The translations under genes were made by a program, and so were the position numbers. A stretch of 32,896 nucleotides of DNA, from the NCBI GenBank assembly GCA_903926205.1, contig CAIYID010000080.1, forward strand, positions 1-32,896, written 5' to 3'. Below are positions 509-31,528 of the stretch, one piece after another. Below the pieces are notes generated by a model, which was not told the origin of the DNA, did no database searches, and worked only from the letters and a program-made list of their open reading frames with translations. This stretch comes from an uncultured Bdellovibrionales bacterium. Its GTDB lineage: Bacteria; Bdellovibrionota; Bdellovibrionia; Bdellovibrionales; Bdellovibrionaceae. The first letter of the stretch is position 1. Every line of letters starts with the position of its first letter.

Positions 509-2419
509 TTAAAGATCCTCTAGAAATGGATTTAGGTTTCTGGGTTTACATTTTACAGGTTTAATTGCTTTCGTTAAAAGCTCTGCCACGATAGGAACTT
601 TTACTACCCGTGAACCGCATATAGGAAATACAGATACTATATCTCCTTTTGTAAAAATATCGTTGGGACGATTGACATCAACACACTTTGGAACCTCACA
701 AACAACAACTCTGACAACATGATCTTCATTTGCAATTTTAATTTTCGCGTCGAAGCCGAATGCTTTGGCCTCATCGACAGGTATTTGCCCAGCAAGCACC
801 TCTTTTGCCTTGTTATCTGGCACCCATTTCCCTTTGTATGATTTGACAGCTGCCACAACCTCATCAAAAGAAGTATCAGTTAAGACACTTGTTTCCGCAT
901 AAGACCTTGCCAATTCTTCTGGAGAACGACTCATGCTAAAATGCTGACTTGAATGCGTAGAAGAGTGATTTGTCAGCTTAATCTCGTTTGAACAAAAATC
1001 ACAATCAGTCTTCCGGGCCACCTGTTCAACAGAGGGGTGGGCCTGAGTCAAAGAACTGATGTCAATTTTTTCAGCTCCCACTTCTTTACTATGAAGCATT
1101 CCTGTCGCGGCTGCGCTTTCCTCGACAAGAGGCTTCGCCGCAGATTTGACGGCCCACTTGTTCCCGGCATCAGCAATGCTCTCTCCAAAATCTCTACCGA
1201 CTTTGCCAAATTCGTCCAGGGCCTTGAAAAACTTTTTTCCGCCTTCCGAGCTAACTTGCATAATCTTTGAAGGCGCGTGAAATAAAATTTTGTCCGCATT
1301 TTTTGCGGTTGTACTTGCTGCTTTACCTAACCAAGAAGTCGAAACACGACTGAGTGTTTCGCCAGTTGCCTCCCCGACGCGAACGCTGAGCTCTGTCACT
1401 TGAGTGAATTTGGGCAGCTGCGCTCCGACGACCTCCATCGCTTTAGCAAACTTCGCACTCTTGCTGATGTATCCAAAGGCCGCTTCACCCGTGAGGAACT
1501 GAACGGCTTCACCGCCGAGATATCCTAAGACTGTACAGACGGCATTAATTCTCGTATTGCAATCGGCACAGATGAATTTTTCTCCAAGATATTTACTGAT
1601 GGCTTCGTTGGCCTCACTAAAAATTTGCTTCACTTTGTTTGTAACAAATTCTTTCATGCTGACCTTGGCAGAAGCGACTTCCCGATTCGTCGTTTGATAT
1701 CCTAATAAGGCTTTATCCGATTCTTTATTTTCGAGAGCGTCTCCGCTGGCCCAGGAAAGAGTATAAGTGATATCGGCTTTGGCTTTAGCAAAGCCTGCTT
1801 TAGCACCAGAAAGCGCGAGTTTTGCAACGTCCTTGATCGTACCCCAGATATTATCTAAGATTCCTAATGCAAATTTCTCTGCACAGTCCCCTTGCTTCAA
1901 ATCCATACAAGAGTTTGGCACTTTGGTTGGGGATTCAAAAATTCGATTGAGTCCATGGGTATTCAAAGTATCCATCGTTCGAGCGACATTACAAGCTGCG
2001 GCTTTAGCACAAGTTCCCGAAAAAATGGGTTGATTGTCACAAGAAACTTTTTTCAAAACTATCGACATATCCTTTGCTTGCTGCTGAGGGCCTTTTTGAA
2101 GGGAGCAGGCATTGGCTTGTTTGTTTTGTTTTAACTGAACCAACGAATCGTTGTATGACTTTGCTGACTGACGGTAGAGCTCAGCAGCGGCTTCGCAACC
2201 CTCGTTCGAATCGATCAGCTGGCCATTCGAAAAACAGCCCAAACCACCTTTGACTGTCGAAGTTTCTAATATGTGCTCTTGAGTCTCGAGACTCTTTCTT
2301 TTTTGCTCTAAGGCTTTTATTTCCGCGGGCATTTCCGTTGCCGACACAGGCACGGTCGTTGTCACCGTCACTGAAAACGCAAAAAACCAAACTATGAAGA
2401 GAATAACTAGTTTTTGCAT
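509..2419 (-). CDS. large Cys-rich secreted protein, unknown function
   Basis: This 636-residue protein has a clear signal peptide (MQKLVILFIVWFFAFS..., probable cleavage after VSA at residue 27). No lipobox is visible. It contains about 17 cysteines, several in close pairs (CADC, CDFC), which suggests disulfide bonding in the periplasm or outside the cell. Residues around 185-400 are rich in Ala, Gly and Lys with amphipathic helices, and include a Cys-containing core (FICADCNTRINAVC) followed by a hydrophobic stretch. A mixed C-terminal domain follows. The layout resembles a secreted toxin-like protein with a helical pre-domain, but I recognise no catalytic motif. The gene overlaps the end of the upstream gene by 13 bp, so the two are probably co-translated. 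Its stop lies only 8 bp from the IS end, so the C-terminus may have been altered by the insertion. Confidence 0.8.
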   Translation of the reverse strand: MQKLVILFIVWFFAFSVTVTTTVPVSATEMPAEIKALEQKRKSLETQEHILETSTVKGGLGCFSNGQLIDSNEGCEAAAELYRQSAKSYNDSLVQLKQNKQANACSLQKGPQQQAKDMSIVLKKVSCDNQPIFSGTCAKAAACNVARTMDTLNTHGLNRIFESPTKVPNSCMDLKQGDCAEKFALGILDNIWGTIKDVAKLALSGAKAGFAKAKADITYTLSWASGDALENKESDKALLGYQTTNREVASAKVSMKEFVTNKVKQIFSEANEAISKYLGEKFICADCNTRINAVCTVLGYLGGEAVQFLTGEAAFGYISKSAKFAKAMEVVGAQLPKFTQVTELSVRVGEATGETLSRVSTSWLGKAASTTAKNADKILFHAPSKIMQVSSEGGKKFFKALDEFGKVGRDFGESIADAGNKWAVKSAAKPLVEESAAATGMLHSKEVGAEKIDISSLTQAHPSVEQVARKTDCDFCSNEIKLTNHSSTHSSQHFSMSRSPEELARSYAETSVLTDTSFDEVVAAVKSYKGKWVPDNKAKEVLAGQIPVDEAKAFGFDAKIKIANEDHVVRVVVCEVPKCVDVNRPNDIFTKGDIVSVFPICGSRVVKVPIVAELLTKAIKPVKCKPRNLNPFLEDL

Positions 2420-2949
2420 TTGAGACTCTTAATGATTTGTTCAGCGGCCTGTTGGTGCTGGATTTCTTGAGTTTTGCTCAGTAAAATTTTGGCTTTGTAG
2501 ACGGTCTTTGGACAAACCAGATAATAAGATTTTTCGACAAACTGTGTCTCGTAAAGCGAGTACATATAACCCGCTTGATAAATCTCGATCCCCGAATTTT
2601 CTTTACTCGTCTTGAAGGGAAAAAAAACAGCGTCATGGCCGCCGCGCTCGTCCAGCCATTTCAACCGACCTTTTTTGTAATCTAAATACGTGGCATTCAA
2701 GGCCGCAGAATCAAACTTCAGCTCCCCTTTGGACACTTGAAGAATCGTCACCACTGGACGTCCCTGGCCTTGCACCGGCCCCAACATCATCACCGGAACT
2801 CCATAAAAATCCTGCATTTTTTCCCAGCCAGATGGCGTAAAGACTGAAAATGAATCAAGTGGATCACTTGAATTTTCGGCATATATAGATAGTGGCAAGC
2901 CAATCAATAAAAGCGTAAAAATAAGCCGAACAATGAGATGAATTTTCAC
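2407..2949 (-). CDS. small exported protein, PsbP/DcrB-like pattern
   Basis: I chose the GTG at 2949 (180 residues) because it starts a compact signal peptide (VKIHLIVRLIFTLLLIGLPL, cleavage near SIYA). The longer frame to a TTG at 3018 would add 23 polar residues and lacks a ribosome site. The mature protein opens with FSVFTPSGWEKM, then alternates strands with a C-terminal helix (QQAAEQIIKSLKC). That pattern recalls PsbP/DcrB (DUF1795)-type small alpha-beta proteins; the match is by eye and weak. It is the first gene of a two-gene unit and overlaps the large secreted protein by 13 bp. A partner, chaperone or immunity role for that protein is conceivable but only inferred. Confidence 0.7.
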   Translation of the reverse strand: MKIHLIVRLIFTLLLIGLPLSIYAENSSDPLDSFSVFTPSGWEKMQDFYGVPVMMLGPVQGQGRPVVTILQVSKGELKFDSAALNATYLDYKKGRLKWLDERGGHDAVFFPFKTSKENSGIEIYQAGYMYSLYETQFVEKSYYLVCPKTVYKAKILLSKTQEIQHQQAAEQIIKSLKCKN

Positions 2950-3352
2950 AAAGTGCTTATCGGCAGAGATCGACCTGCGCTCAACTGGTCGTTGGGCCGT
3001 GGAGGTCGCCCCATCCAATCCGTCGTTTCAAAAATAAAGCGAACTTTTGTTCCATGGGAACGTCCTTCAACACTTTTTTCACCGCAAGGGGATCTTCACT
3101 AGAAAAAGACACTTACACAACTTGCCACCCTCTCCAAAATAACGACTTATTTTTCAAAGCCCAAAGGGCTTATGAAAAACTTGGGCGGCTCTACCTCACA
3201 ACTCTAGCCCGCAGTACGTCCTCGACAAGTACGAAACATAATCACCTGAATTTTTTATTTTTAATGATATCAGGATCAAAGACTCGTCAACACTTCCACC
3301 GGGGCTCTGAATCAGCTATACTAAATCTTTAGAAGGTGATGGTTATTTCTTC
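2950..3352. other. intergenic region between divergent genes
   Basis: This gap of about 400 bp must hold the promoters of the leftward two-gene unit and the rightward CheX-type gene. I see an inverted repeat GTTCC-ATG-GGAAC at 3049-3061 that could be an operator. A small perfect hairpin, AAGCCC-AAA-GGGCTT, lies at 3157-3171. A -10-like TATACT at 3317-3322 is placed sensibly for the rightward gene but has no good -35. A plus-strand open frame of 92 codons (3054-3332) has no ribosome site or recognisable protein and was not called. Confidence 0.4.
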
Positions 3353-4270
3353 ATGAAGCAGTTTGTACTTATAGCAAACAGAGACACTGACAAGTTAAAT
3401 GAGCTCAAGAAAGCCTTATCCGCCGATGATATCATTGTCAACTTGGCGGTGGATGGCCATGATGCCTACATGAAGTCGACCAATCAAAAGTATGACCTTA
3501 TCATAACCGCTTACCGCCTGCCAAAGCTTGAGGCGGCTCCTTTAATCAAATCATTTAGAGATCACCGCGCCAATGCGAAAACCCCCATTTTGATCATCAC
3601 TTCGGAAGCCACTGAAGTGGAAAATACTTTGCAAAGCCGGAGCTTGAATCGAAATATCTCCATTGTCCCTCTGACCAAAGATCTCAACGAAACAATAAGT
3701 ATCGCCAAAAAAATCCTCGAAAACCAAGATGAGGTCGCCTCGACGGCGGAAACAACTTCTGCAACCACGGCTCCAGCGCCAAAAGCACTTGTCGCCGATG
3801 TTAATTTTTTGAATCCCTTTATTTCCTCCATTCAAAAAGTCATCGCAGAAATGGCTTCAGTCAAAGATATCACTCCCAAAAAAGTCGTCGTAATGAAACC
3901 CAATGGGGATGTCGAAGCTGATATTTTTTCTATTTTATCGGTCCAATCTTCTTACTTTAATGGAAGTCTTGTCTTAGCCTTTCCTAAAGACACCTATTTT
4001 GAAATTCAATTTCGAATGCTTGGAGAACGCTCCGACACTCTGAATTCAGAAAGTGCCGACATGGCTGGAGAGTTAGGAAATATTATTTTTGGTGCCGCAA
4101 AAAAAATATGGAATGAAATGAAATACGAAGTTCAAAAAACCATTCCCAGTGTTATTTGGGGAAATAAGCCGAGCATTCTTTTAGATAAAAAAAATCCCAC
4201 TTTGCTGATCAATTTTACATCCGATGCCGGACGATTCTGTGCCTTGATCAATGTTTCCTTCGATAAATGA
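3353..4270 (+). CDS. pseudo-receiver / CheX-type phosphatase fusion
   Basis: The 305-residue protein has two domains. Residues 1-124 follow a response-regulator receiver fold, but the beta-3 segment reads YDLIITAYRLP: Ala53 (GCT at 3509-3511) replaces the phospho-acceptor Asp. The beta-4 Thr83 and a Lys109 are kept. An Ala/Thr-rich linker (about 127-145) leads to a CheX/CheC-like domain (about 150-305). It carries the family's E-x-x-N motif as E240-L-G-N243 inside SADMAGELGNIIFGAAKKIW. CheX proteins dephosphorylate CheY-P, so a role in chemotaxis or related two-component signalling is expected. The receiver probably senses or docks without being phosphorylated. The ribosome site AGAAGGTG (3331-3338) is rather far from the ATG. 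The gene stands alone. Confidence 0.85.
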   Translation: MKQFVLIANRDTDKLNELKKALSADDIIVNLAVDGHDAYMKSTNQKYDLIITAYRLPKLEAAPLIKSFRDHRANAKTPILIITSEATEVENTLQSRSLNRNISIVPLTKDLNETISIAKKILENQDEVASTAETTSATTAPAPKALVADVNFLNPFISSIQKVIAEMASVKDITPKKVVVMKPNGDVEADIFSILSVQSSYFNGSLVLAFPKDTYFEIQFRMLGERSDTLNSESADMAGELGNIIFGAAKKIWNEMKYEVQKTIPSVIWGNKPSILLDKKNPTLLINFTSDAGRFCALINVSFDK

Positions 4271-9770: not shown

Positions 9771-11300
9771 GTGATGATGAAAACTCAAAATAACCACTTC
9801 TTACTCTTATTAATTATTTTGGCGTTCGTCGCTGTCACTAGCGGCTGCAGCAAAGCGACTCCAAATTCGGGCACACTCCTCCATTCAGTCTTGGATGCTC
9901 CGAGCATTCAGTCTGCCGCAGAAGCGGCCACCAATTCCTTAGGATGTAAGGACCTCGAGAGTCACCTTTGGGACGTTTCCTACGCTGTAGTTTTAAATCA
10001 GAACTCAAAGCTTACACAAAACCCAGCGATTAAAGCTCCTGAGATGTCCAAGGCTATTTTAAACTCGAAATTCAGTCAAAAATTCAGCGAACACTCGCGC
10101 TCAACTTTGCTCCAACTGATACAAAAATTCTATGAAATTCATGAGGCGCTCTTAAATTCGAAGGGATCAAAACAAGAGAAATTAGAAATGCTGACCTCTC
10201 TAGAAATCGGAAAATCTTCTGATCCTGAGTCCAAAAATATCCAAGCACAATTGCGAGCTTGGCGCCAAAAAGTGAGTGGGGCCCTGGACTCAGAAAACAT
10301 CACCTGTGCGCGGCCCGAACCTTTCGCGCTGCAATTTCAATCTTTCGTTGACTCACTCGATACGAATAATGACGTTTCAGTGCAAATGATGACCGGAGCA
10401 CGAAAGACCTTTGCCGTGGCTTATCAAAGCTGTGAGCTAGAAAAACTCCCTCCGATCAGCAAAGAATTCCCTTCCCTTTCTGGAATTGAGACTTTAGGCA
10501 AAGCTTCCAATGGCGGTGTTATTCGAAAAATCACCGATCTGTCCGCCTTTTTAAAATCTGATTATTACTACCGGGATTTTAGTTTAGGTCCGCAATGCAA
10601 AGATCTTCGTACCAACCCGCTGATCTATAATTTCGGTGGAAAACCAGACATCGTGACCTCAGGGGATGAAGTTTTATTTGATCTTTTTGCCCATGGCAAA
10701 GAGGGCGAAGGCGTTTCTCCGCAACTGGGGATTGATTGCTCCGGATATGTATTTACCTCGATTGCCACATCAGGCTTGCGGCTTGCACCAGATAAGGATT
10801 TAAAACCTATTCTTGTTTACGGTTTGGGTTCAAAAATGTATTTAGAACCTGAAAACAATGGCCTGACTTGTTTGAAAAAAGTGAGCATGGGTCAATCGGG
10901 AACATTAAAAGACGGCGATATTATTGCCGTCGATGGTCATGTCGCCATTTTTGGCCAGGTGGGAGCCGATGCCTTAGGAATCCAAAAAATAACCCAAGAG
11001 TCAGACTGTGACAAGCTCACCGACGAAAATTTTGATTTTGTTATTTATCAAAGCTCCTCAAGTAAAAATGGTCTAGGAATTAACAAGTATCTCGGCAAAG
11101 ATTTTCTCAGTGAAGATTCGACTTTTCGGCGGGGCTTAGTGACCTACGCCCAACAGGCTTGCCACGCCCGTCTTCAACAAAAGGACGTGGAAGTTTATTC
11201 AAAAGAAATTCAAGTTGATCGCTTTATTAACACAGCAGCCTGCCAAGAATCCCCGATCCACTTGGTGGGGGAATCTTGTGTCCGTCAGTGTTTTGAATAA
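9771..11300 (+). CDS. NlpC/P60-like lipoprotein (putative cell-wall hydrolase)
   Basis: The N-terminus is a lipoprotein signal with lipobox VTSGC (C26), so the 509-residue protein should be membrane-anchored in the periplasm. The first 250 residues are mostly helical and unknown to me. Residues about 300-430 carry an NlpC/P60-type signature: C323 in GIDCSGYV, H390 in KDGDIIAVDGHVAIFG, and a plausible third polar residue at Q427 (VIYQSSS). NlpC/P60 enzymes cut peptidoglycan stem peptides, so a wall-remodelling role is likely. The C-terminus is Cys-rich (CHARL, CQES, CVRQC) and may be disulfide-bonded. The start may be GTG 9771 or the ATG next to it. No strong ribosome site is visible. Confidence 0.78.
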   Translation: MMMKTQNNHFLLLLIILAFVAVTSGCSKATPNSGTLLHSVLDAPSIQSAAEAATNSLGCKDLESHLWDVSYAVVLNQNSKLTQNPAIKAPEMSKAILNSKFSQKFSEHSRSTLLQLIQKFYEIHEALLNSKGSKQEKLEMLTSLEIGKSSDPESKNIQAQLRAWRQKVSGALDSENITCARPEPFALQFQSFVDSLDTNNDVSVQMMTGARKTFAVAYQSCELEKLPPISKEFPSLSGIETLGKASNGGVIRKITDLSAFLKSDYYYRDFSLGPQCKDLRTNPLIYNFGGKPDIVTSGDEVLFDLFAHGKEGEGVSPQLGIDCSGYVFTSIATSGLRLAPDKDLKPILVYGLGSKMYLEPENNGLTCLKKVSMGQSGTLKDGDIIAVDGHVAIFGQVGADALGIQKITQESDCDKLTDENFDFVIYQSSSSKNGLGINKYLGKDFLSEDSTFRRGLVTYAQQACHARLQQKDVEVYSKEIQVDRFINTAACQESPIHLVGESCVRQCFE

Positions 11301-26668: not shown

Positions 26669-29600
26669 CTATTTCAGCTCAGGGTGCACCATCAATAAAA
26701 TTTGATTCATTTTTTGAAGGTTATTAACCATCATTCCATGCATCCCAGACAAGGTCGTGTCAGGTAATAATGTCGTCGCAATTTTCTTTTGATCATCGGT
26801 GAGCGTGCTTTGCATCGCTTTAAACCCTACAAAAAACAGAGGCTCGCTCTTGGCGACAAAAGCATTGGTGTTAATCATTGATTCAACATCCTTAGGATCT
26901 AACTCCACCTTTGATTTTGCCAGATTTTTGGAGATCGCCCCAATGTCTTCCTTCAGGCCATCAAGCAAGCCGAATTCTTGAGCAATCATTTCCTCAAAGT
27001 TTCCTCCGTCCTTAATTTCAGCAGCGGACAAGAGTTGATTGGACTTATTCAATTCTTGTAACTTAGCCACTAGTGCTGCCACAGCGATTTTTCGTTCATC
27101 TGTTTTTACTGTTAAGACCTTCGCGTAAAGATCTTGCAATTCCTTCTGATTCTCGATGATCAATCGTGTTCGACTTGTGGCCTCGATCACTCCCTTGGAA
27201 TGATAGGCGTTATCAAAAGACCAAAATTTCAATGAGGAGGAACTATTTAATTTATCATCTAGCTTCGCTACAACCACTCGACCATCGTTGATTGCTTGCG
27301 TGGTACTACCAACTCGGAAAAGTGAAGCGAAATTATCTTTATCCTGTAGAGCATCGGCATCCAAATAGACGGTGCTGGCCAAGATGGAGTAAAAGCGCAA
27401 AATATCTGTGGTCTCAGGTTGATAACGAGGTGGCAACCACATAGGACCATTGCCACTCATTATCAAGGTCTGTGGAGTCTCTGAAATCGTTTGATAGAGC
27501 GCCGTCAACAAAAGGGACCCCTCACCCGTCAAACCAATAACCTTTTCAAAGTCAGCGTAAGAAATTTTTAAGCCAATGCTGTCATACCGAGGATTATCAA
27601 CCCCTCGTTGAGTCAACATCATTATTGACAATGCTTTATCGTATTCATTACCACGCGTCTGAATGAGATTCGTTTGTTCTGGAGTCGCTCCAGGTAAATA
27701 CTGATCTTTGACGGCTTTTTTCTCAACAACCAAAGCGTTGTAAATTTTCTTTCCCGTTGGGTCTCCTTTATCATTGGTCTGCTCTTGTTTATAGGAAACG
27801 ATTGAGTAACGGCCGCCATCCCAAACTGGTTTATCTGTCGTCGGGGACGTATAAATCTCTGTAAATGTTTTTAATCCAAGCACTGCGGCTGGCACATAAC
27901 TTCGAATCGTTGGCATATCACTGCCAGACACTAATAAATAAAAAGTTTCATCTAAAAAGGCTCGGACGCGGAAGAATTCATAAGTCATTCGTCCAAGGTA
28001 AGAACCAGAATTTGGCATATTGATTCTATCATTCATTGCATTGGCCGTTGGATACATATTTTTGTATTCGTTGACATAAAAGTTTGCAACTTCGTTCGGA
28101 GTTGTTCCCAAGTCCCAACGATTACACATGGGATCGCCACCAACATGAACGTCAGTGCAATAATGATATTTTTTCACCGCAACACTTGCCGCTGATGTTT
28201 GATTTAAGGTCCACCAAGAATTATCGCCGAGTGCAACTTTTTTAATGTCGTCAATATGAATAAGATTATTGCCTCGTAATTCGGCCTTGAATGGCTGCCC
28301 GCCTTTATCAGACAATTTCAATACTGATTTTCCATTTTCTTGAATGATATTGGTTTTATTCGAATCATCTAATTCCACATAACCTGTATACGCCGCTCGT
28401 AAGGCAAAGACATCGTAAGGTCCAGGTCCAAAATAGCCCATGTAGTTGTTAGGGAAATAATCCATCACAGAAGAGTGACGACGAGCCACATTTTCACCAG
28501 AGAACTTCCAGTTGGCCGCATCGACAGATCCTTTGAAGTTATGAGTCAAACCCAAGGAGTGGCCGATCTCATGAGATAAAATGAGTTTGTATTTTTCAGA
28601 AAAAATATCCTCCACACTCATGTTCAACATTTTCGCCACGTCCGAAGATTCAGAGCTGGTCGCCGCTGAGGTCAGCAAACAATTAGGACCATGACTAAAG
28701 CTTTTGGTAAACTCCACCATCAACTTGAGACGATTCACCTGAAGACTCAATAATTTTCGCTGATCCGGACTCAGCCGATTTCCATAAGCATTGAGCACTT
28801 CAGTGGCTGACAAGGCCTGCAAAGCCAAAGGATCGGAAGTGATATGCTGATCAATGGCCCCTTTAAATATTTTTTGCAAATAGTCGACTGAGTTGATCCC
28901 CAGTTTATTAGTCGCAATTAAGTTTTGCCCAGAAGTGGCTTTAAGTTCATTCAAAAACTTTTGTGTCAAAGGAGAATTAATCCCTTTCATCGCCAAATTG
29001 AGATTCATCGGAGTATAAAGTTGGTAAGCTCCGTGACTCACTCGTTTCCAATTCTTAAATGCATTCAAATCAAAACGGGCCATGTTGACACCCATATTTG
29101 CATTTGGCTTCGCATTGCTCGTTGGAGCGGGCTGCTCACTCGATATTGGAGTGGCATTACTGGCAGGTGCCGCACCATCGGCACCATCGGCACCATCGGC
29201 ACCTTCTGACTCTGCCTCTTTCACTTCAGTTCCAAGCTCGGGATGCGCTGACGCATAGTCATTGACCACTTTATTTTTTAGCTTTGCATATTCTGTTTGA
29301 ATTTTGGCAATTTCAATTTCTTGTCCAATCATACTCAAGACACCGCCGCTGTACATGAGAACGTTATTAGCGATACTCATACCAGAACGTGGATTTGGTG
29401 CCGCTTGTGATAAGCCCAAAGTTCCAGAATCTAAACGTTTATCAAAATTCCAAATATAATTTCGATCCAAATCACCCAAGTGACCCGGCGAAATATCTTC
29501 TCCATCAATTTTCAAATCAATATAGTCTTGATTCGAGTCCAAGTTCGTTGAAGCAAAAGCCTTATGTAACGAAGTATTCCAATCAGCGATCACTTGTCTT

Positions 29601-31528
29601 GTTGCCTCAACAAAAGCTTTACGAATCTTTGGATCTTCTGGAAGGCCCCCAAGAACATAGGTCAATTTTTTTCCATTTTTAAAATCCTGCAAAACTGGGT
29701 AAGCCGATTCGGTCCCAGTGTGTCCTGTGTTGCCGAATTTGTCCGGATTGATAGTACCCATGGTAAAAGCGCCAAAACCCAATAAATTCTGCGCTCGGAA
29801 AGGCAGATTTAAACTTCCAGGTTGGTCCAAAGAGTGATCATTAGATTTAAAAGAAATCCGTTCTTTAATATTGAAGGCCGATTGAGAATTCGCTCCATAC
29901 CAATAATCATTGAGCTGATAAAAGCTGGAACATTCTGATCTAAAATTATAGGTTCCATCAATCGAAAAATTGAGCACTCCCTGATCTAGACGCATATCCA
30001 TGTCTGCAACTGTTTGACTGCCGATGGAGTCAAAACAAGCACCGTTCTGCATCCAAGAAAGTGGCGAATTAGTGAATCGAATATCATTTTGAGTCCAATC
30101 AATTGACACAATATCCGCTTTGTCCAGCGTGGTCTCTTGTGGATTGTTCAAGACAAATCCTTGTTTATCTTTAGTGATAAAATATTTTGCAGGAAAAGAC
30201 ATTACACTTTCTAAGTCGATCGGTTTTGCATTTTTATCGCCGTTAACAGACAGCACTCGTTGAATGACGAGATGGCTCGGAGTCAACACGAAGCGAACGA
30301 TGTCCATATTTCCACTCTCACCAGGGCCAAATGGTGCGATTGTTGCCGCAGCATCTTCTAGCGTACGACGAAGAAAAAATTCTTTATCTTTAATGTCAGC
30401 AATCTTGATGGTATTGATCGGGTTTTGACTGGGTGTCGAAGTGCCTGGCACTTGTTTAGATGTGATTCTAAGAATTCCAGTTCCTGCCTGCAAGGGAGCT
30501 TCGATATAATTAATTTCGCTCGTTGACACGCCATTGTTCGTTTTAGCACGTGGCTGAACAAATTTTGCACTTAAACTATTGATCTGCTGAAGAACACAAT
30601 CATTTTTATTTGTGAGGGACAATTGCTTAAGCAAATCTGCAGAACAATAAAGAACGTCTTCTTGCTCTTTACTCGAATCCAACTCTGCCAATAAATTCTT
30701 GTCTTGAATGTCCGATCTTTTCACAATTTGGTAAAGCAACACTCGAGTTTCTACACTGGACAAGGGTGTCGACTTAGAGATTCGTACAAATAAATTGGAC
30801 TGATCTTGACTAGCGCTCAAACCTAAATTTGTTTGAAATAGTAAATTCACCGCCGCTACTGTCATCAAACGATTATCGACTTGATCCGCATAAAATAATT
30901 CTCTGTGGTCCTCAACTGAATCCGGAGAAACTTCAACCGGAGTTACCCCAGTATCTAAATCCAGTTGCAAGTGAGTCGCTAAATCAAGACTGGTTTTGAA
31001 TAAACTCAAATTACTGGTTTCTTCACCTACATCATTTTTATCTCTTTTTAAAACACCCGCAGCCAAAATTTTTATTTTTATTTTAGGTACTAAAATATTA
31101 TTTTGTTCTTGCACTGAAATCTGTTGATCAAAAAGATTCAATTGATTTTTCGAATTAGCCACGCGATAGATGGTCACAAATCCAGTGTCATTTTTCATTT
31201 CTACTCGAAAAATAATAGGGAAAGATTCTCCGGAATTTCCTACGACTGAAACTTTTCCCAAGGAACTCGTCAATTTATCAGGCGCCTTCAGTGATTGCAC
31301 CGCCGCTTTATTCTTTTGAGTTTGAACCACTGCTTTATCGGAATTATCCATCGGAGCAATGGTATTTCCCAGACTCATACTAAAGCCACTGCCTTGCAGA
31401 TCAGAAATAGCAATCACTTGTGCGGCAACCTTATCATCTTTGATAGTCGCAGTTCGACTTTTCGTACACGCAGTGATCATCGTGATCGCCAAGCTCAGTG
31501 CGCAGAGGTCTCGTAATTGCTTTTTCAT
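26669..31528 (-). CDS. giant metzincin-type zinc metalloprotease lipoprotein
   Basis: The 1619-residue protein starts with a lipoprotein signal and lipobox ITAC (C21), so it should be tethered to the cell envelope. The ribosome site AAAGGAG is well placed. Residues 30-650 are beta-rich and unrecognised. A flexible linker with GADGADGADGAAP separates helical stretches (around 750-830). The catalytic site is HEIGHSLGLTH (H986, E987, H990, H996) followed by NFKGS and a Met-turn SSVMDYF (M1022). This is the HExxHxxGxxH metzincin pattern, in the form seen in DUF5117/DUF4953-type zinc-dependent proteases. It is about twice the length I would expect for those. The last 400 residues are helical. It follows the outer-membrane protein gene by 26 bp on the same transcript. 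Substrate unknown; surface or periplasmic protein degradation is inferred. Confidence 0.88.
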   Translation of the reverse strand: MKKQLRDLCALSLAITMITACTKSRTATIKDDKVAAQVIAISDLQGSGFSMSLGNTIAPMDNSDKAVVQTQKNKAAVQSLKAPDKLTSSLGKVSVVGNSGESFPIIFRVEMKNDTGFVTIYRVANSKNQLNLFDQQISVQEQNNILVPKIKIKILAAGVLKRDKNDVGEETSNLSLFKTSLDLATHLQLDLDTGVTPVEVSPDSVEDHRELFYADQVDNRLMTVAAVNLLFQTNLGLSASQDQSNLFVRISKSTPLSSVETRVLLYQIVKRSDIQDKNLLAELDSSKEQEDVLYCSADLLKQLSLTNKNDCVLQQINSLSAKFVQPRAKTNNGVSTSEINYIEAPLQAGTGILRITSKQVPGTSTPSQNPINTIKIADIKDKEFFLRRTLEDAAATIAPFGPGESGNMDIVRFVLTPSHLVIQRVLSVNGDKNAKPIDLESVMSFPAKYFITKDKQGFVLNNPQETTLDKADIVSIDWTQNDIRFTNSPLSWMQNGACFDSIGSQTVADMDMRLDQGVLNFSIDGTYNFRSECSSFYQLNDYWYGANSQSAFNIKERISFKSNDHSLDQPGSLNLPFRAQNLLGFGAFTMGTINPDKFGNTGHTGTESAYPVLQDFKNGKKLTYVLGGLPEDPKIRKAFVEATRQVIADWNTSLHKAFASTNLDSNQDYIDLKIDGEDISPGHLGDLDRNYIWNFDKRLDSGTLGLSQAAPNPRSGMSIANNVLMYSGGVLSMIGQEIEIAKIQTEYAKLKNKVVNDYASAHPELGTEVKEAESEGADGADGADGAAPASNATPISSEQPAPTSNAKPNANMGVNMARFDLNAFKNWKRVSHGAYQLYTPMNLNLAMKGINSPLTQKFLNELKATSGQNLIATNKLGINSVDYLQKIFKGAIDQHITSDPLALQALSATEVLNAYGNRLSPDQRKLLSLQVNRLKLMVEFTKSFSHGPNCLLTSAATSSESSDVAKMLNMSVEDIFSEKYKLILSHEIGHSLGLTHNFKGSVDAANWKFSGENVARRHSSVMDYFPNNYMGYFGPGPYDVFALRAAYTGYVELDDSNKTNIIQENGKSVLKLSDKGGQPFKAELRGNNLIHIDDIKKVALGDNSWWTLNQTSAASVAVKKYHYCTDVHVGGDPMCNRWDLGTTPNEVANFYVNEYKNMYPTANAMNDRINMPNSGSYLGRMTYEFFRVRAFLDETFYLLVSGSDMPTIRSYVPAAVLGLKTFTEIYTSPTTDKPVWDGGRYSIVSYKQEQTNDKGDPTGKKIYNALVVEKKAVKDQYLPGATPEQTNLIQTRGNEYDKALSIMMLTQRGVDNPRYDSIGLKISYADFEKVIGLTGEGSLLLTALYQTISETPQTLIMSGNGPMWLPPRYQPETTDILRFYSILASTVYLDADALQDKDNFASLFRVGSTTQAINDGRVVVAKLDDKLNSSSSLKFWSFDNAYHSKGVIEATSRTRLIIENQKELQDLYAKVLTVKTDERKIAVAALVAKLQELNKSNQLLSAAEIKDGGNFEEMIAQEFGLLDGLKEDIGAISKNLAKSKVELDPKDVESMINTNAFVAKSEPLFFVGFKAMQSTLTDDQKKIATTLLPDTTLSGMHGMMVNNLQKMNQILLMVHPELK
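29172..29203 (-). repeat. 9-bp in-frame tandem repeat encoding a Gly-Ala-Asp run
   Basis: The unit GCACCATCG (plus strand) is present three and a half times without a mismatch and encodes the Gly-Ala-Asp repeats of the metalloprotease linker. Exact repeats of nine bases can gain or lose units without breaking the frame. Confidence 0.9.

Follow-up and report, generated by a model that had tools for sequence, protein, structure and literature searches.

The 32,896-nt stretch of DNA analysed here (the window) carries an orphan gene whose product joins a response-regulator receiver domain to a CheX domain (Table 1). Its frame is uninterrupted and full length. Both domains are recognized by Pfam, the receiver with 32.6 bits over residues 5-88 (Response_reg, cut-off 30.2) and CheX with 48.9 bits over residues 194-289 (PF13690, cut-off 27). 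The AlphaFold2 model, built from 22 sequences, has a mean pLDDT of 89.2; both domains are well defined, with their mutual placement being uncertain (pTM 0.56). The receiver half consists of five strands alternating with five helices at a pLDDT of ~90. The CheX half can be superposed over 148-155 residues on experimental CheX structures, with VIA-align Z values of 22.8 for Vibrio CheX (6vpw), 20.7 and 21.0 for T. maritima CheX (1xko and 1squ, respectively) and 18.7 for B. burgdorferi CheX in the CheX-CheY complex (3hzh, chain B).

Table 1. Features of the receiver-CheX gene and its product, with positions in the window.
Feature	Position	Strand	Basis
Receiver-CheX fusion gene, orphan, 305 aa	3353..4270	+	ORF; Pfam Response_reg and CheX above cut-off; AlphaFold2
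Predicted pseudo-receiver domain, residues 1-133, last helix extended (111-133)	3353..3751	+	Model secondary structure; structural similarity to receivers (Z ≤19.1)
N9-R10 in place of the Mg-binding acidic pair	3377..3382	+	Column 9 Asp/Glu in 69/82 fusions
Ala53, codon GCT, in the phospho-Asp position	3509..3511	+	Alignment of 82 fusions; β3 end in the model
L107 in place of the active-site Lys	3671..3673	+	Column 107 Lys in 70/82 fusions; just past β5
Linker, residues 134-148; pLDDT <50 at 133-144	3752..3796	+	AlphaFold2 model
CheX domain, residues 149-305	3797..4267	+	Pfam; VIA-align Z to solved CheX
E240-x-x-N243 catalytic motif, inside GELGN	4070..4081	+	Matches GE-x-x-N of five solved CheX-like chains

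A sequence-only reading of the window had proposed that the receiver has no phospho-acceptor, with Ala53 standing where the aspartate should be. The alignment, the codon GCT (one base off the Asp codon GAT) and the position of A53 at the end of β3 (49-53) in the model all bear this out. That reading was right about Ala53 and too narrow about the extent of the loss, since the acidic pair and the lysine are gone as well. In the model, N9 and R10 come after β1 (3-8), and L107 comes after β5 (102-106). T83, which closes β4 (79-83), is the only receiver catalytic position kept, three of the four places being lost. Thus, of the acidic pair, Asp, Thr/Ser and Lys that mark a phosphorylatable receiver, the window protein has T83 alone. 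No other acidic residue was seen in the acceptor position, either in the alignment or from the strand positions. A Response_reg sequence and a receiver fold with A53 in place of the phospho-Asp are the marks of an aspartate-less receiver, and on sequence and predicted structure the domain is classed as an aspartate-less pseudo-receiver. The claim that the CheX domain retains E240 (codon GAG) and N243 (codon AAT) also stands: both lie in helix 232-255 of the modelled CheX half and align with their counterparts in five solved relatives. The PF13690 sequence, the predicted fold (Z 18.7-22.8) and the presence of E240/N243 in the active-site helix all identify the domain as CheX.

The source genome is a draft of 3.34 Mb in 94 contigs. 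A Pfam scan of 21 of the 43 window ORFs of at least 80 aa places the gene among those for CoA and fatty-acid metabolism, a D-Ala ligase, a GTPase (presumably HflX-like), malic enzyme, a Met-zincin and unknowns. CheX phosphatases are usually encoded near chemotaxis genes, which is a common though not strictly defining trait; in contrast, no chemotaxis family was found among the 20 other window ORFs scanned, in agreement with the earlier remark that a chemotaxis operon is absent. The 92-aa ORF just 5' of the fusion gene (3054-3332) has no family match and looks spurious. A promoter scan returned no more sites than in shuffled sequence, and no terminator was found. Elsewhere in the window, the Met-zincin (DUF4953) match lies at residues 976-1053 of a 1619-aa protein encoded at 26669-31528 on the reverse strand. 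The proteins encoded at 509-2419, 2407-3018 and 9771-11300 have no Pfam match above cut-off; one of them, of 509 aa, has a weak NlpC/P60 match.

Signalling genes of the chemotaxis type are present on other contigs of the genome. On contig C87, a gene for a 136-aa CheY-like receiver (92.5 bits) directly adjoins one for a stand-alone 171-aa CheX; this CheX and the window protein are the only PF13690 matches in the genome. Contig C52 has two CheW-domain ORFs, of 158 and 667 aa, the larger of which is taken for CheA from its length and layout. Three chemoreceptors are also encoded. With CheW-domain ORFs, chemoreceptors and a CheY-like gene beside CheX, candidate substrates for the window protein exist in the same genome.

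With the window protein as query, a second receiver-CheX fusion was found in the source genome, a 289-aa protein on contig C64 (L033:5234-6103) that is 22% identical to the window protein over 221 columns. The C64 receiver is complete (D11, D12, D56, S86 and K107) and matches Response_reg with 65.3 bits. In its CheX half, A227 and S230 occupy the Glu and Asn positions, and Pfam detected Response_reg alone in this protein, with no match to the CheX family. The C64 neighbour genes look like housekeeping genes when their sequences are read by eye. As judged from sequence, two paralogues of one genome show opposite decay: the window protein would have lost the receiver site and the C64 protein the CheX pair.

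Receiver-CheX fusions are widespread in Bdellovibrionota. A contig scan with the window protein as single query gave no match; the same kind of scan with alignment A1 as query gave 58 loci, among them L105 with the receiver-CheX gene of Bdellovibrio bacteriovorus. When 368 genomes of the phylum were searched with six candidates scored in each, ten matches to the window protein had E values of 1e-30 or better, with 30-36% identity. Among these ten nearest matches, residue 53 is Asp in eight, Glu in one and Ser in one, and the lysine and the Glu/Asn (E/N) pair are kept in all ten. The best match, in genome G308, has every receiver residue. The window protein is the only sequence of its exact lineage, no homologue being matched in the single same-genus genome, which is 54% complete. 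Nine of the ten nearest matches belong to other orders than that of the window, and within its own family even the top-scoring one is weaker (2.2e-29), which hints at transfer, or at an old paralogue retained by few. The placement of this long branch is unstable across trees. The window protein groups with L188 in a 63-row tree (SH-aLRT 91) that omits 19 Bdellovibrio-type rows, lies beside the L004 group in a CheX-only tree (82/74), and falls inside the group of the C64 paralogue in a receiver-only tree (88/89). On the 63-row tree, the minimum number of state changes is 10 for Asp at position 53, with Glu counted as a departure, and seven for the E/N pair.

To place these residues in a family context, 82 distinct fusions were collected, with tree rows spanning nine family codes. 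It should be mentioned that this set, pooled from several searches, is a sample and not a census: the phylum searches scored six candidates per genome, and one of them contributed its best rows. Residue 53 is Asp in 68 fusions, Glu in 4, Phe, Ser and Arg in 2 each, and Ala, Pro, Leu and Asn in 1 each. It is therefore non-acidic in 10/82, and Ala occurs in the window protein alone. The alignment with other fusions called for in the sequence-only reading thus gave a negative answer: with Ala in 1/82, Ala53 is ruled out as a conserved feature of the family. Since Ala is found in one of 82 fusions and the ten nearest relatives have Asp, Glu or Ser, Ala53 is, on these sequences, a lineage-specific loss and not a family design.

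Both residues of the E/N pair are kept in 73 of the 82 fusions and changed in nine, five of which retain the Glu and not the Asn. Since the pair is changed in these nine, CheX domains of the family may have non-catalytic roles. Taken together, 59 fusions combine Asp53 with the E/N pair, 10 have a non-acidic residue 53 with the pair, four have Glu53 with the pair and nine have Asp53 with a changed pair; the pair is thus retained in every one of the ten fusions with a non-acidic residue 53. Under a stricter definition of the receiver site (acid at 9, D53, S/T83 and K107), the counts are 52 for complete sites with E/N, 21 for incomplete sites with E/N, seven for complete sites without it and two for incomplete sites without it. 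Mutual exclusion of the two losses was considered as a family rule and rejected: no fusion combines a residue 53 other than Asp with a changed pair in the first table (0/82), and two (L009 and L191) are altered on both sides in the stricter one (2/82). L245 of genome G327, fetched later and outside the 82, has Glu at position 53 and Glu for the catalytic Asn, as read by eye, and is also altered on both sides.

Before counting, identical CheX domains were merged, and L029, in which CheX comes first, was left out; its reversed order of CheX then receiver is encoded in a single 331-aa frame (L029:1069-2064). Forty proteins with an N-terminal part that has no receiver HMM match were also left out. 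These may conceal very degenerate receivers, and the non-Asp cases may consequently be undercounted. The N-terminal part of one of them, L015, is a STAS domain by Pfam, and those of L016, L018-L021, L025, L026 and others among the 40 resemble it by eye.

Genomes with a non-acidic copy tend to encode more than one fusion. At least two were found in seven of the eight such genomes searched in detail (G000, G131, G097, G265, G326, G364 and G164), and a single, non-acidic one in the eighth, G367, which is 73% complete. By match span, at least two fusions occur in three of 23 control genomes (G308, G172 and G327), the two copies of G172 being nearly identical. The resulting Fisher p value of 0.0003 is post hoc, relies on hand-picked controls and ignores relatedness. 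The controls are 23 of 24 hand-picked genomes in which the first-found fusion has Asp, G326 having been moved to the other group when it proved to be a non-acidic carrier. The p value becomes 0.0026 when the second copy of G097, a weak one (match 4-200, CheX 28 bits), is disregarded, and 0.0067 without both this copy and G164, a genome that was sampled for its Glu copy and in which the non-acidic copy was found afterwards, which biases the comparison toward association. As to the other second copies, the receiver of that in G364 is very weak (14 bits), and that in G164 has Glu. G131 encodes four fusions (L056, L064, L199 and L222), one with Asp and three without (Phe, Leu and Phe), all with the E/N pair. 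The association with copy number fits a division of labour and a relaxed constraint on spare copies alike.

Each half of the window protein has well-known counterparts. The CheX half resembles CheX (PF13690; 1xko/1squ, 3hzh) in its fold and in the E-x-x-N motif on a long helix. However, the matched CheX chains are single domains of 149-159 residues, whereas the window protein carries its CheX domain C-terminal to a receiver. The receiver half resembles the aspartate-less receivers in having the fold without the phospho-Asp, with Ala in its place as in FrzS, and differs from them by its junction to CheX; the word CheX is absent from the main text of PMC4395418 and PMC12632262. No receiver-CheX fusion is described in the literature searched, a body of partial texts from which subscription papers are mostly absent. 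Acceptor-keeping fusions of Bdellovibrionota such as G308:C209 (L181) and G156 (L188) share the architecture and the E/N pair with the window protein at 35-36% identity, but they retain Asp53 and Lys107 and the window protein does not. In the CheA-CheC/CheX fusions of Leptospirae (PMC10542144), CheX is also joined to a signalling module, which is a kinase and not a receiver.

Whole-model Foldseek matches to RssB (6od1, 8t85) have a TM score of ~0.35 and an rmsd near 20, from which it follows that one domain carries the match. RssB likewise combines a receiver with a phosphatase-type effector, although this effector is not CheX. The RssB effector is a pseudophosphatase adaptor. The C64 paralogue would be its closer analogue; the window protein has decayed on the receiver side. 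On the whole, an aspartate-less receiver joined to CheX is made of familiar signalling parts in an uncommon but recognisable combination.

CheC/CheX-type phosphatases insert a water-orienting Asn and an acidic side chain that forms a salt bridge with the active-site Lys of the substrate (PMC3035606). Aspartate-less receivers that act via protein contact are known, such as FrzS with Ala in the acceptor place (PMC4395418; PMC12632262); according to these papers, FrzS is bound by SgmX, and the receiver and pseudo-receiver of PleD interact. By analogy with these systems, and from the sequence and model, we propose that the product of the window gene is probably an orphan phosphatase of the CheX type that acts in trans, its pseudo-receiver serving for docking or dimerisation. 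A switch by phosphorylation of its own receiver would be impossible. Having neither the Asp nor the Lys, this receiver would not serve the CheX domain of the same chain as a substrate, and would be a poor pseudo-substrate for it. With no such switching and no substrate in the same chain, the CheX site would be free for action in trans on the C87 CheY, the receiver of the C64 paralogue or another response regulator. Like other aspartate-less receivers, the pseudo-receiver would be retained for protein contacts that serve docking, dimerisation or localisation, and it could determine which substrate is met. The missing Lys, which makes it a poor pseudo-substrate, favours such a contact role over self-inhibition. 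A docking or regulatory module, as the sequence-only reading had suggested, appears to be the most plausible role of the pseudo-receiver by analogy.

An assembly or base-call error might give a false Ala53, as GCT and GAT are one base apart and the genome is a draft of 94 contigs. This is very improbable: N9, R10 and L107 are altered too, and a single error cannot account for the decay. It is also possible, though unlikely, that the receiver has been drifting in a spare copy since a duplication or transfer, in which case it would have no role and the protein would be an unregulated CheX or one being lost. The sporadic, scattered losses in the family and the presence of another fusion in most genomes with a non-acidic copy agree with such drift. 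On the other hand, the ORF is full length, the receiver fold is predicted at a pLDDT of ~90, the receiver still scores just over the Pfam cut-off and the CheX pair is kept.

It is rather doubtful that the window protein stands in for the lost phosphatase site of a phosphorylated C64 protein, for example in a CheX-CheX heterodimer. The idea draws on the C64 protein having a complete receiver and a CheX without E/N, with the reverse in the window protein; on a similarly opposite pair in G097, in which L069 has Pro53 and keeps E/N and L223 has a complete receiver and a changed pair; and on the excess of genomes with at least two fusions (7/8 vs 3/23). However, the window and C64 genes are on separate contigs and do not form a sister pair in the tree, and the copy counts are post hoc, with hand-picked controls and uncorrected relatedness. 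Opposite decay is no rule, given that L009, L191 and L245 are altered on both sides. All G131 copies have E/N, so none of them is without the phosphatase pair, and G010 has a C64-like copy (L009) for which no window-like partner was found in that genome. A little less probable again is a split two-protein switch, in which paralogues with opposite halves lost would jointly restore, in trans, a response regulator capable of erasing its own signal.

How pseudo-receivers are switched on and off is described as mysterious in a review from 2025 (PMC12632262). A pseudo-receiver fused to an enzyme whose activity is simple to measure would offer a clean assay for the role of such domains. What makes the locus interesting is that two paralogues show decay on opposite sides, and that the acceptor has been lost repeatedly while E/N was retained. 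Should the paralogue pair prove real, it would represent a natural case of reciprocal loss dividing a self-erasing response regulator between two proteins.

Some further arrangements of these domains were observed. A tandem double-CheX protein of 365 aa is encoded in a Bdellovibrionales MAG (L115:4758-5855), and a 637-aa protein of Acanthopleuribacter pedis has a tandem double CheX with PilZ (L143:4230-6143). The gene neighbourhoods of six fusions (L085, L086, L089, L237, L238 and L239) were compared by eye, with nine other context loci (L087, L088, L090, L091 and L240-L244) left out; no neighbour genes common to several genomes were seen among the six, except in genomes G199 and G198 (L238 and L239). 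In these two genomes, the receiver-CheX genes occur in tandem pairs (L238:6795-8692; L239:6249-8111) that adjoin a long ORF resembling an aminoacyl-tRNA synthetase by eye, and one copy of each pair has Lys for the catalytic Asn.
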